DNA of 64,000 nt from Flavobacterium galactosidilyticum (GTDB taxonomy: Bacteria > Bacteroidota > Bacteroidia > Flavobacteriales > Flavobacteriaceae), in NCBI RefSeq assembly GCF_020911945.1, contig NZ_CP087135.1, forward strand, positions 3,026,001 to 3,090,000, written 5' to 3'. A program made the translations under genes and the position numbers. The notes under the pieces are model-generated. The model worked only from the letters and a program-made list of their open reading frames with translations, did no database searches and was not told the DNA's origin. Shown here piece after piece: positions 18,756-62,558 of the stretch. The number at the start of each line of letters is the position of its first letter. Positions within the stretch are counted from its first letter, which is position 1.

Positions 18756-18832
18756 GGAGCTATTCCCGCTGTACACTCCAATCTTTTCTTTTTTAAGAAA
18801 AAAAGAAAAGGATTTCCATTTCCATCGGGGCT
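18756..18832 (-). repeat. Dispersed palindromic repeat, copy 1
   Basis: On the plus strand it starts GGAGCTATTCCCGCTGTAC, then has an A/T hairpin (about 18783-18808), then AAAAGGAT and a C-rich end. Its ends match the reverse complement of the element at 22644-22714 (GGAGCTATTTCCTGCTATTC ... AAAAGGAT). It lies 40 bp before fumC. Confidence 0.6.
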
Positions 18833-18871
18833 AAAAGTATAATAAACTACATATTTATAAATAACAACGAC

Positions 18872-22464: not shown

Positions 22465-22643
22465 TTTTTTTGGATTTAAATTGAAATAAAATCTATACAA
22501 ATCTTATTCTTCAGGTTAATTTAGAAAATAAATTTACAATTTTATTATTTAATAGTTTTAAAATCTAATGTAATACAATAGTATTGATTAATAATCTTAA
22601 ATACTTTTATTTTGAATCGACTTATCAACAACGAAAAACCCTT

Positions 22644-22714
22644 GTCCTGATCAGCGGCATCCTTTTATTAGCGATAGCAAATAAAAAATATAGCGAATAG
22701 CAGGAAATAGCTCC
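22644..22714 (+). repeat. Dispersed palindromic repeat, copy 2
   Basis: It reads CCTGATCAGCGGCATCC, an A/T hairpin (CCTTTTATTAGC against GCAAATAAAAAAT), TATAGCGAATAGCAGG and AAATAGCTCC. Its ends match the reverse complement of 18756-18832. It lies 14 bp before the methionine-gamma-lyase-like start, so it would be in that transcript's leader. Confidence 0.6.
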
Positions 22715-30565: not shown

Positions 30566-31039
30566 ATGAACAGAAAAATAATAATAACAGCCCTACTTTT
30601 TATTGTAACTATGGTAAACTCTCAAGAAAAAATAACAACAGAACCTATTCTTACTGGAGAATCTGCTAGGAAAATTGTACAGCGCGCATTTGAACAGGCA
30701 GAAAAAGACAGATTATTCGTAACTATCACTGTAGTTGACAAATCTGGGCAAACACTAGCGGTATTGAGACATCATAACGCTGGAGTGCATACTGTAAGGG
30801 CAAGTTATAAAAAAGCTTATACCGCTTCTTCTCAAAAAAGGGAAACTGCGGAAATTGCTAAAGGACTTAAAAACGGTAGTATTCCAGAGGATTTCAGATT
30901 TCTAGATGAGAATATTTTAGCGATGGATGGAGGAATCCCAATTTATATTAATGGGAAAGTAGTAGGTGGTATTGGCGTTGGAGGTGCTCATGGAGACGAA
31001 GATGTTCGCATTGCAAAAGCAGGATTATATGGATTTTAA
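30566..31039 (+). CDS. Secreted GlcG/HbpS-family (DUF336) protein
   Basis: A signal peptide covers about residues 1-19 ([12 protein letters not shown], ending VNSQ), so the 157-aa protein is extracytoplasmic. The GlcG/HbpS fold is seen in [31 protein letters not shown] and [20 protein letters not shown]. Relatives include HbpS of Streptomyces, a heme-binding protein that modulates a sensor kinase, and GlcG of glycolate loci. A heme or redox role is possible but not shown. It stands alone, divergent from the giant kinase gene. Confidence 0.82.
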
Positions 31040-60670: not shown

Positions 60671-61369
60671 TTATTTAATCCTTGATAAAATATCATTCAT
60701 CATTTCGATTTGAACTTTTTGAATTTCTATTAACTCTTCTTGTTGATGCATAATTAAATGATCTAACTTTTCATGAAGCATTCTGATTTCAAGTTCTGAT
60801 TTTAAATTAATCATATAATCTTTCTTTGCTCTATCGCGATCTTTTTCTTCCTGACGATTTTGGCTCATCATAATTACTGGAGCTTGAAGTGCAGCTAAAC
60901 AAGATAAAATCAAATTCAACAAAATAAATGGATAGGGATCAAATCCTTTATTTAATAACAAATAAATATTAGCGGCAATCCAAAGTAAAATAAAAAATCC
61001 GAATAGGATTATAAATTTCCAGCTACCGCCAAAAGCAGCGACTCTATCGGCTATCTTTTGCCCAAATGTTCGAATTCCAATTTCATCTTCTACAGTATTA
61101 ACCAGAGATACATCTTCATTCAGGGCATCGACAACCTTATTTTCTAAATTAGATAACTCTCCTATTTCAACAGACAGATAATTAGAAATGTATTTCTCTC
61201 TGTATAAATGGAGTTCGCTTACAGAGAGGCAGTCCTCTTCTTTAAAGTCGGGAAAATCATTTTTAATGAGTGATAATATTGGATTCCTCACTGTTTTCGC
61301 AAGTACTTTATCAGCTATTGGAAATTCTTTCTTAGATACATCACTTATAAAAGTCAAATTATTATTCAT
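60671..61369 (-). CDS. DUF1003 membrane protein
   Basis: 232 aa. About residues 1-95 are soluble and acidic. Two membrane helices follow (WKFIILFGFFILLWIAANIY, PFILLNLILSCLAALQAPVI), then a Lys/Asp/Arg-rich segment QNRQEEKDRDRAKKDYMINLK and a coiled-coil C terminus (about 185-232). This is the DUF1003 arrangement; some relatives are linked to Mg2+/cyclophilin loci, but function is not established. Divergent from the cysM leader. Confidence 0.87.
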   Translation of the reverse strand: MNNNLTFISDVSKKEFPIADKVLAKTVRNPILSLIKNDFPDFKEEDCLSVSELHLYREKYISNYLSVEIGELSNLENKVVDALNEDVSLVNTVEDEIGIRTFGQKIADRVAAFGGSWKFIILFGFFILLWIAANIYLLLNKGFDPYPFILLNLILSCLAALQAPVIMMSQNRQEEKDRDRAKKDYMINLKSELEIRMLHEKLDHLIMHQQEELIEIQKVQIEMMNDILSRIK

Positions 61370-61510
61370 GAGATTTTATTTATTAGCTAATTTAAAAAAA
61401 GATGTAATCAATATACTTTTTCATACTGCAAAGTTTAAAGTATTTAACAAATGAGCTTATTTACCCAGAATCTCTTTCCATCTACAAATAAATTATTCGA
61501 AATAGTTCAA

Positions 61511-61518
61511 TATATTTG
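61511..61518 (+). promoter_or_regulatory. -7 box of the cysM leader transcript
   Basis: TATATTTG, a full TAnnTTTG match, with transcription expected near 61525, 17 nt before the leader-peptide ATG. The -33 element is weak. The placement of this box relative to the peptide is strong support that the peptide is transcribed. Confidence 0.55.
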
Positions 61519-61541
61519 TGTCTTGATATAAAACTAAGAAA

Positions 61542-61595
61542 ATGATTTTAAATTTTACTTCTACACCTTATTGTCATTGTTGTTGCTGTTTTTAA
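61542..61595 (+). CDS. Cysteine-rich leader peptide upstream of cysM
   Basis: A 17-codon ORF, MILNFTSTPYCHCCCCF then TAA. Five of the last seven codons are Cys (TGT TGT TGT TGC TGT, with CAT between the first two), a stretch with no expected function other than reporting charged cysteinyl-tRNA. It lies about 17 nt into the predicted transcript and 75 nt before cysM. Classical amino-acid attenuators (trp, his, leu leaders) use the same logic, and cysteine-rich leader ORFs are known before cysteine genes in Actinobacteria; I am not aware of this one in Bacteroidota. It is too short for standard gene calling. Confidence 0.75.
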   Translation: MILNFTSTPYCHCCCCF

Positions 61596-61596
61596 A

Positions 61597-61641
61597 AAAT
61601 CCTTTACGATAAAAAAGACAATAGAGGATAATTAAATCCTC
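61597..61641 (+). promoter_or_regulatory. Mutually exclusive RNA pairings behind the leader peptide
   Basis: Segment 1 (AUCCUUU, 61599-61605) can pair with segment 2 (AGAGGAU, 61623-61629), 7 bp including one G-U. Segment 2 can instead pair with segment 3 (AUCCUC, 61636-61641), a 6-bp hairpin with loop AAUUAA. Segment 1 starts 4 nt after the leader stop codon, so a ribosome halted on the Cys codons would cover it and favour 2:3; a ribosome that has finished would free it. No U-run follows, so the outcome may be translational or Rho-linked rather than simple termination. Confidence 0.5.
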
Positions 61642-61670
61642 CTCATTAAAATCATTAGATACAAAACAGC

Positions 61671-62558
61671 ATGAAATCACAAAAATTAGTGGACTTAATA
61701 GGCAATACACCGTTAGTAGAATCTATTAACCTAGTACAAAATAAAAACGTAAAACTTTTACTAAAACTAGAAGGCAATAACCCTGGAGGCAGCGTCAAAG
61801 ATAGAGCAGCTTACAACATGATTAAATCCGCATTAGAACGTGGAGAAATCAAAAAAGGAGATAAACTTATCGAGGCTACAAGCGGTAATACTGGAATTGC
61901 ATTAGCAATGATTGCGCAATTATTTAATATAGAAATTGAACTCGTTTTACCAGAGGATTCTACTAAAGAGCGTACTCAAACCATGCGTGCGTACGGCGCT
62001 ACAGTCATTTTAACACCTGCTAGCACGGGGATTATTGGCTCAAGGGATTATGCTGACAAAAAAGTGGCTGAAGGCGGTTATATTATGTTAAATCAGTTTG
62101 CTAATGATGACAACTGGAAAGCCCATTACAAAACAACAGGTCCAGAAATATGGAATGATACCGATGGAACTGTTACTCATTTTGTATCTGCTATGGGAAC
62201 TACAGGGACAATTATAGGAACATCTGCATACCTGAAAGAACAGAATCCTGCTATCCAAATAATAGGTGCGCAACCTAGCGATGGTTCTCAAATTCCTGGA
62301 ATCAGGAAATGGCCAAAAGAATATTTACCAAAGATTTTTGACCCATCAAAAGTTGATACTGTAATAGAAGTTTCAGAAGAAGAAGCGCGAGCGATGACGA
62401 AACGATTGGCGCTTGAAGAAGGTGTTTTCGCAGGAATGAGTAGTGGAGGTTCTGTAGCTGCAGCATTAAAAATCGCAACTACTTTAGAATCTGGGGTGAT
62501 TGTCGCAATCATTTGCGACCGTGGCGATCGTTATTTATCATCTGATCTATTTGATTAA
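61671..62558 (+). CDS. cysM: Cysteine synthase B
   Basis: Fold-type II PLP enzyme making cysteine from O-acetylserine and sulfide or thiosulfate. LVDLIGNTPLVES opens it, Lys in NPGGSVKDRAA is the Schiff-base lysine, ATSGNTGIALAM binds substrate, VSAMGTTGTIIGTSAYLKE the phosphate, and GVFAGMSSGGSVAA closes the site. 295 aa, the CysM length, shorter than CysK. It is monocistronic, with its own promoter, leader peptide and terminator. The CBS-like enzyme at 2479-3519 is a second cysteine/cystathionine synthase in the same window. Confidence 0.93.
   Translation: MKSQKLVDLIGNTPLVESINLVQNKNVKLLLKLEGNNPGGSVKDRAAYNMIKSALERGEIKKGDKLIEATSGNTGIALAMIAQLFNIEIELVLPEDSTKERTQTMRAYGATVILTPASTGIIGSRDYADKKVAEGGYIMLNQFANDDNWKAHYKTTGPEIWNDTDGTVTHFVSAMGTTGTIIGTSAYLKEQNPAIQIIGAQPSDGSQIPGIRKWPKEYLPKIFDPSKVDTVIEVSEEEARAMTKRLALEEGVFAGMSSGGSVAAALKIATTLESGVIVAIICDRGDRYLSSDLFD

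Follow-up and report, generated by a model that had tools for sequence, protein, structure and literature searches.

Positions 61542-61595 of the window, the whole 64,000-nucleotide stretch of Flavobacterium galactosidilyticum DNA analysed here, are likely to act as the sensor in an attenuator that responds to cysteine through ribosomes: a translated leader in front of the cysteine synthase gene cysM, on which ribosome stalling would open the cysM start. The relevant features, in window coordinates, are:

60671..61369, minus strand: DUF1003 gene, divergent neighbour of the leader-cysM unit (Pfam PF06210, E 3.4e-42)
61501..61518, plus strand: conserved promoter motif AATAGTTCAATATATTTG, which includes the -7 box
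61511-61518, plus strand: -7 box TATATTTG, fitting the sigma-A consensus TAnnTTTG
61523..61523, plus strand: predicted transcription start site, placed from the box spacing
61542..61595, plus strand: leader ORF MILNFTSTPYCHCCCCF-stop, with ATG at 61542, 17 codons and TAA at 61593-61595
61572..61589, plus strand: Cys codons 11 and 13-16, the proposed sensor codons (TGT, then TGT TGT TGC TGT, with CAT between)
61584..61592, plus strand: proposed anti-start segment TGCTGTTTT, predicted to pair with 61663-61671
61624..61641, plus strand: spacer hairpin GAGGAT-AATTAA-ATCCTC of the centroid structure, followed by no T-run on this strand
61663..61671, plus strand: cysM translation start region AAAACAGCA, whose final base is the A of the ATG
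before the cysM start: stretch AAAACAGC
61671..62558, plus strand: cysM, cysteine synthase B (above cut-off for NCBIfam NF008735 and TIGR01138)

A cysteine-rich leader in front of cysM

The leader ORF closes with the codons TGT CAT TGT TGT TGC TGT TTT TAA, and 75 nt separate its stop from the cysM ATG at 61671. The initial annotation, which had reported a 17-codon Cys-ending ORF 75 nt 5' of cysM, is thereby confirmed at 61542-61595 on the plus strand. As in ribosome-mediated attenuators, a gene for making an amino acid is preceded by a short ORF in which codons for that amino acid are clustered. The pattern TGYTGYTGYTGYTTYTAA (CCCCF-stop) has a single match in the 3.53-Mb genome of the window, and only 3 of the 689 short ATG ORFs in the window (8-40 codons, both strands) carry at least three Cys in their last eight codons; one of the two further cases (10623) sits within a 333-codon ORF. 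A short ORF at window position 30989 (counted from 0) has three Cys among its last eight codons.

Elsewhere in the genome of the window, a second CysE homologue lies next to a CysK-like gene and lacks such a leader. No Cys-run uORF was found before this cysE-cysK-like pair or two other synthase homologues inspected, nor before the PAPS-reductase-family genes or cysS inspected. Near two PAPS-reductase-family genes at L262 (G000:C1:453000-459500) there is an ORF that we take to resemble an Rrf2-type regulator; it is a possible protein regulator of sulfur genes.

The sigma-A box of F. psychrophilum, TAnnTTTG, is placed at -12 to -5 in the accessible text of PMC9723704. With this spacing, the -7 box at 61511-61518 puts the start site at about 61523 and predicts a 5' UTR of about 19 nt. 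The ORF does lie close to the predicted start site, as had been claimed, at a distance of about 19 nt instead of the 17 nt first given. A search of the 398 genus genomes for the promoter motif, as AATAGTTCAATATNTTTG, gave 33 matches, as opposed to one for the reversed control, and the 18-mer occurs once in the genome of the window. Of these 33 matches, 31 precede cysE (20) or cysM (11), the exceptions being L228 and L254; the 18-mer may be an operator in addition to a promoter. The motif is kept 5' of cysE or cysM even in loci without a leader, such as L088, L133, L135 and L145. A "second promoter" 3' of the leader (TTG...TAnnTTT) was dropped, being by eye not common among leader loci.

The loci marked by the promoter motif provide a measure of cysteine specificity. 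A uORF with at least three Cys in its last eight codons is present in 19 of the 31 (10 cysM, 9 cysE), loci that are related and hence not independent; the other 12, including the broken G007 and L235, have no leader. This is the conservation of regulatory codons expected of ribosome-mediated attenuators. Dinucleotide-preserving shuffles of the 31 motif regions gave no leader in 30 rounds, and the same criterion applied to each of the other 19 amino acids returned none of the 31 loci.

Conservation of the leader beside cysM

We compared 80 CysM relatives from named genomes, mostly Flavobacterium, out of at least 482; most of the named loci have the cysE-cysM arrangement. In ten of the 80, cysM has no cysE before it, and all ten carry a leader of the 17-codon kind, for example F. 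yafengii MSLNYKNIPFCYCCSCF, F. xanthum MSSHYNYIPFCYTCCYF, F. limicola MSLNFENIPFYCCCCCF and F. flabelliforme MPFNSKYIPLYLGCCCL. For the comparisons below, loci from further genomes were added; once five duplicates and the broken L031 (G007) were left out, the cysM-type set consists of 16 distinct sequences, which are related rather than independent. All 16 have an ATG, 17 codons without indels and a TAA, followed by a spacer to cysM of 71 to 97 nt. Codon 14 is TGT in every one and codon 15 is Cys in 15, while Cys occupies codons 13 and 16 in 12 leaders each and codon 11 in 11. An NYKNIPF-like N-terminal stretch is common to most of the clade. At G007 (L031), a lone cysM, the leader is broken by eye, with the start lost and two stops. 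In L031 and in L076, the codon preceding the Cys run is a stop where relatives have Tyr, and the Cys run itself is retained.

A search of the 398 genomes of the genus with TGYTGYTGYTGYTTYTAA returned 50 matches in 47 genomes, all inspected. Of these, 37 are enclosed, on one strand or the other, by a stop-to-stop frame of 90 codons or more. The 13 outside such frames include nine before cysM (among them the broken G007) and two before cysE; the matches at L155 and L161, by eye not at cysteine genes, lie in frames that overlap longer frames on the opposite strand.

Conservation of the frame in relatives, proposed as a check when the ORF was first described, is thus borne out by a frame and length that are constant across the cysM clade. 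The accompanying expectation of synonymous change in the Cys codons is realised elsewhere: TGT/TGC exchange is nearly absent in the cysM clade and present among the leaders that precede cysE. Pairwise differences between cysM leaders number 368, 413 and 478 at codon positions 1-3, a slight third-position excess, and codons 11-17 show no such excess (102, 170, 106). There is therefore no clear codon-level selection within the cysM clade, where conservation could reflect the RNA level or plain descent.

Leaders before cysE-cysM and the history of the locus

For cysE-cysM loci, a leader was defined as an ATG frame of 8-32 codons with at least three Cys among the last eight. By this criterion, 5 of the 69 assessed loci have a leader and 64 do not (L129 was excluded). 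Examples are MNNRQLRFYFKISISLGNCCCCF, MSHVHNQFNPLFSLSFRNCCCNF and, in Flavicella marina, MLATQTYQITSFTTQYSLCDCRCCF. These leaders share the C-terminal Cys run and have unrelated N-termini, which makes simple copying a poor explanation. Cys number and placement are variable among them, and the runs differ in codons and interruptions (CDCRCC, CCHC, CICCRCC), always in a single frame with the stop just after.

Absence takes several forms. In a clade of 41 cysE-cysM loci, none of the 40 assessed has a leader; by eye, the frame of L076 is closed by a stop ahead of the Cys run, and L077 no longer has a start. A wider scan of L073, L120, L144 and L146, whose cysE start had first been poorly placed, gave no leader by the criterion. 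A GTG frame far upstream in L120 (VDFNAPCFCC) was left uncounted, and a frame in L074 that ends HCC-stop has two Cys, under the criterion. In the wider family, 145 of 249 genomes have a CysE match at threshold, and 30 loci were inspected. Both loci of genus g22 carry a leader, one of them identical to that of Flavicella marina, and the remaining 28 have none, although in six of these there are frames, mostly lacking an ATG, with two or three dispersed Cys; these were not counted. With 64 of 69 cysE-cysM loci lacking a leader, and with broken copies in G007, L076 and L077, the leader is evidently dispensable. The original link of the leader to cysM therefore needs qualifying: it holds before cysM alone, but the leader is found ahead of cysE-cysM as well, and many relatives lack it or have a damaged copy.

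A CysM tree of 81 rows, built by a quick method, groups the cysM-alone loci in one clade that implies one change (SH-aLRT 95), while presence of the leader requires at least six changes, three of them forced by well-supported branches. A DUF1003-like gene, the divergent neighbour in the window, also lies upstream of cysE in L106, as judged by comparing L106 by eye with the frames upstream of the leader-cysM loci. The CysE of L106 scores above the NCBIfam cut-off for EpsC serine O-acetyltransferase and below that of the NCBIfam cysE model. From the single cysM-alone clade and the neighbour shared with L106, we consider it most likely that cysE was lost from a leader-cysE-cysM operon and that the leader stayed with cysM; the tree by itself gives no direction to gain or loss. 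The leader seems to predate its association with cysM on its own. The motif A[CT]AGCATG is found in 9 of 10 leader-cysM loci as opposed to 5 of 70 cysE-cysM loci; its TAGC may simply be what is left of a cysE stop codon, a possibility that weighs against the mechanism proposed below.

Predicted coupling between leader and cysM start

An RNAalifold consensus of the 16 cysM-type sequences contains a sole helix, of seven pairs, joining codons 15-17 with the cysM start. It is a weak helix of -3.04 kcal/mol, to which covariation contributes -0.12. Each of its pairs holds in 15 or 16 of the 16 sequences, one of them as GC in 8, GU in 5, AU in 2 and AC in 1. In the window, nine pairs are possible between 61584-61592 and 61663-61671; its minimum-energy fold differs from the consensus helix and is not unusual relative to shuffles (z -1.61). 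The leader start at 61541-61551 is complementary over 11 bases to 61646-61656 and is paired with it in the predicted fold of the window, a pairing not noticed in the folds of relatives. No consensus structure was obtained for 11 cysE-type sequences, the set of 12 less L253 that was used for folding and duplex calculations.

We then modelled a ribosome whose footprint was assumed to run from 15 nt upstream of the A-site codon to 11 nt downstream of it. Placed on the Cys codons, it makes the start region of the 16 cysM-type sequences easier to open: the mean cost falls from 4.16 to 2.07 kcal/mol, with a drop of at least 0.4 kcal/mol in 14 of the 16 and no effect in L067 and L237. At codon 2 the mean is unchanged (4.17), and at the stop codon it is 2.98. 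The effect is small in the window itself (1.4 to 0.6 kcal/mol), and the 11 cysE-type sequences show no mean read-out (3.64 to 3.34 kcal/mol). Shuffled spacers yield a mean gain of 0.21 (sd 0.27), and none of 30 reaches 2.09; when just the 12 nt before the start are shuffled, the gain is still 1.82 on average over the null, and 8 of 30 reach 2.09. At the 5% level, the duplex energy between leader tail and start is not above that of composition-preserving shuffles in 14 of 16 cysM-type and 11 of 11 cysE-type sequences. The models thus predict a coupling between leader and start region in the cysM clade that is partly a matter of composition and that, in its narrow form of 7-9 bp, is a tentative prediction.

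Masking of the start would matter in these organisms, since Flavobacteria are described in the accessible text of PMC9976891 as initiating without Shine-Dalgarno sequences and preferring unstructured starts.

Proposed mechanism and its alternatives

We propose the following cycle for the cysM-type leader. When Cys-tRNA is plentiful, ribosomes would complete the 17 codons and depart, after which the leader RNA, from its final Cys codons through the stop into the spacer, would pair onto the cysM start, and little CysM would be made. When Cys-tRNA is scarce, a ribosome stalled at codons 13-16 would cover the anti-start segment, leaving the cysM start accessible and allowing CysM to be produced. 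Stalling and the direction of the response, with cysM going up, are steps that we infer from the attenuator model, and the helix and its opening by the ribosome are predictions from folding. Translational control is the leading candidate, at a little less than an even chance, and a Rho-type level is a lesser one. Our most specific version is a tentative one: cysE having been lost, the inherited polycysteine leader would have come to stand beside cysM, and its last Cys codons UGCUGUUU would pair with AAACAGCA at the cysM start.

The Cys codons could also act as sensor for Rho-dependent termination in the spacer, with the stalled ribosome shielding the RNA from Rho, which we rate as possible though doubtful. 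An intrinsic terminator scan of 61400-61760 found none on the plus strand, and the absence of a terminator-like site there suits Rho, as do the cysE-type leaders: the models gave them no read-out at the start region, and a Rho mechanism would account for them. For the actinobacterial cys leaders, Seliverstov 2005 put forward Rho, with the tna operon as the analogy, in the part of the text available (PMC1262725). However, the spacers vary in length and sequence between lineages, and Rho leaves the modelled start-region effect of the cysM clade unexplained. On the minus strand, the leader-cysM spacer holds a terminator-like hairpin with a T-run (61642-61623).

It is unlikely that the leader is vestigial, an old cysE-cysM attenuator stranded before cysM with its regulation gone. 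A single clade of cysM-alone loci, reached by one change, and the decay in G007 are compatible with such a remnant, but start, stop and the 17-codon length are constant in 16 distinct intact sequences, as against the many absences elsewhere.

We think it quite unlikely that the repeat TGTTGTTGCTG is a DNA operator, a promoter element or a structured RNA, with translation of the ORF serving no purpose. The third base of the Cys codons hardly varies in the cysM clade, as such an element would have it; the cysE-type runs, by contrast, use other codons and interruptions while keeping one frame and a stop just after, and a search of 61400-61800 against Rfam gave no match at E 1. The only Rfam matches of the window at gathering threshold lie elsewhere, two Flavo-1 elements (RF01705) at 18758-18836 (minus strand) and 22639-22711 (plus strand).

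Action of the peptide itself, through metal or thiol binding or nascent-chain arrest, is very unlikely: its Cys-rich tail and the NYKNIPF-like N-terminus would favour it, but the N-termini of cysE-type leaders are unrelated, their Cys vary in count and place, and N-terminal likeness inside the cysM clade can be descent.

Lastly, although three short ORFs in the window end in Cys-rich tails, a chance ORF is almost inconceivable, and on sequence grounds it is excluded by conservation and Cys specificity. The claim that the match between the Cys run and cysM is hard to ascribe to chance is upheld by its conservation in relatives and its absence from shuffles, and the reading of the Cys codons as a sensor finds good comparative support in the constant frame and length, the Cys runs under unrelated N-termini and the same empty shuffles.

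Relation to known systems

In attenuators of the trp and his type, and in translational attenuators of the erm type, a stalled ribosome alters the folding of downstream RNA. The present case departs from these in that no terminator was found and the sensor codons themselves are proposed to mask the start. The polycysteine leaders of mycobacteria are reportedly leaderless, to go by a 2020 title of Canestrari and colleagues. The Flavobacterium leader differs from that type in having a predicted 5' UTR of about 19 nt.

Polycysteine leader ORFs precede cys operons in Mycobacterium and Propionibacterium acnes and cbs in Bifidobacterium longum, according to the accessible text of PMC1262725. Like the mycobacterial ORFs as described there, ours has its Cys run near the stop, stands before cysteine genes and lacks an obvious terminator (PMC1262725); unlike the actinobacterial ones, it belongs to another phylum, shows no sequence relation that we noticed, precedes cysM or cysE-cysM and is read by ribosomes that do without Shine-Dalgarno sequences. 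In Rhodobacterales, uORFC-8-2 before cysS has tandem Cys codons, two stems and a U-run terminator, as given in the available text of PMC8632094. It resembles our leader as a uORF with tandem Cys codons and a presumed Cys-tRNA sensor (PMC8632094), and differs in that the gene in the window is the cysM synthase and no plus-strand terminator was found. Closer by descent, leader peptide attenuation before amino-acid operons is mentioned in general terms for F. psychrophilum, the same genus and the same principle, with no cysteine gene named in the accessible text (PMC9723704). Another member of the Bacteroidota, Bacteroides thetaiotaomicron, has long 5' UTRs with short ORFs "reminiscent of leader peptides"; the example gene in the text available encodes a hypothetical protein, not a cysteine enzyme (PMC7366714). 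Among the titles, abstracts and text passages that our literature search covered, none describes a cysteine leader in Bacteroidota. We therefore place the leader, as a new example from Bacteroidota, in a class already described in Actinobacteria and Alphaproteobacteria, with an unproven read-out that is possibly new. Because no sequence relation to the actinobacterial or alphaproteobacterial leaders was noticed, polycysteine leaders look like a repeated solution.

Most likely, the cell would sense cysteine shortage through the speed of ribosomes across the leader. If the proposed pairing is true, sensor and mask would be one segment, a terminator-free arrangement suited to ribosomes that ignore Shine-Dalgarno sequences. 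For the study of ribosome-mediated control in bacteria that initiate without Shine-Dalgarno pairing, the locus would be a compact and testable system, in which natural losses and one operon rearrangement could serve as controls.
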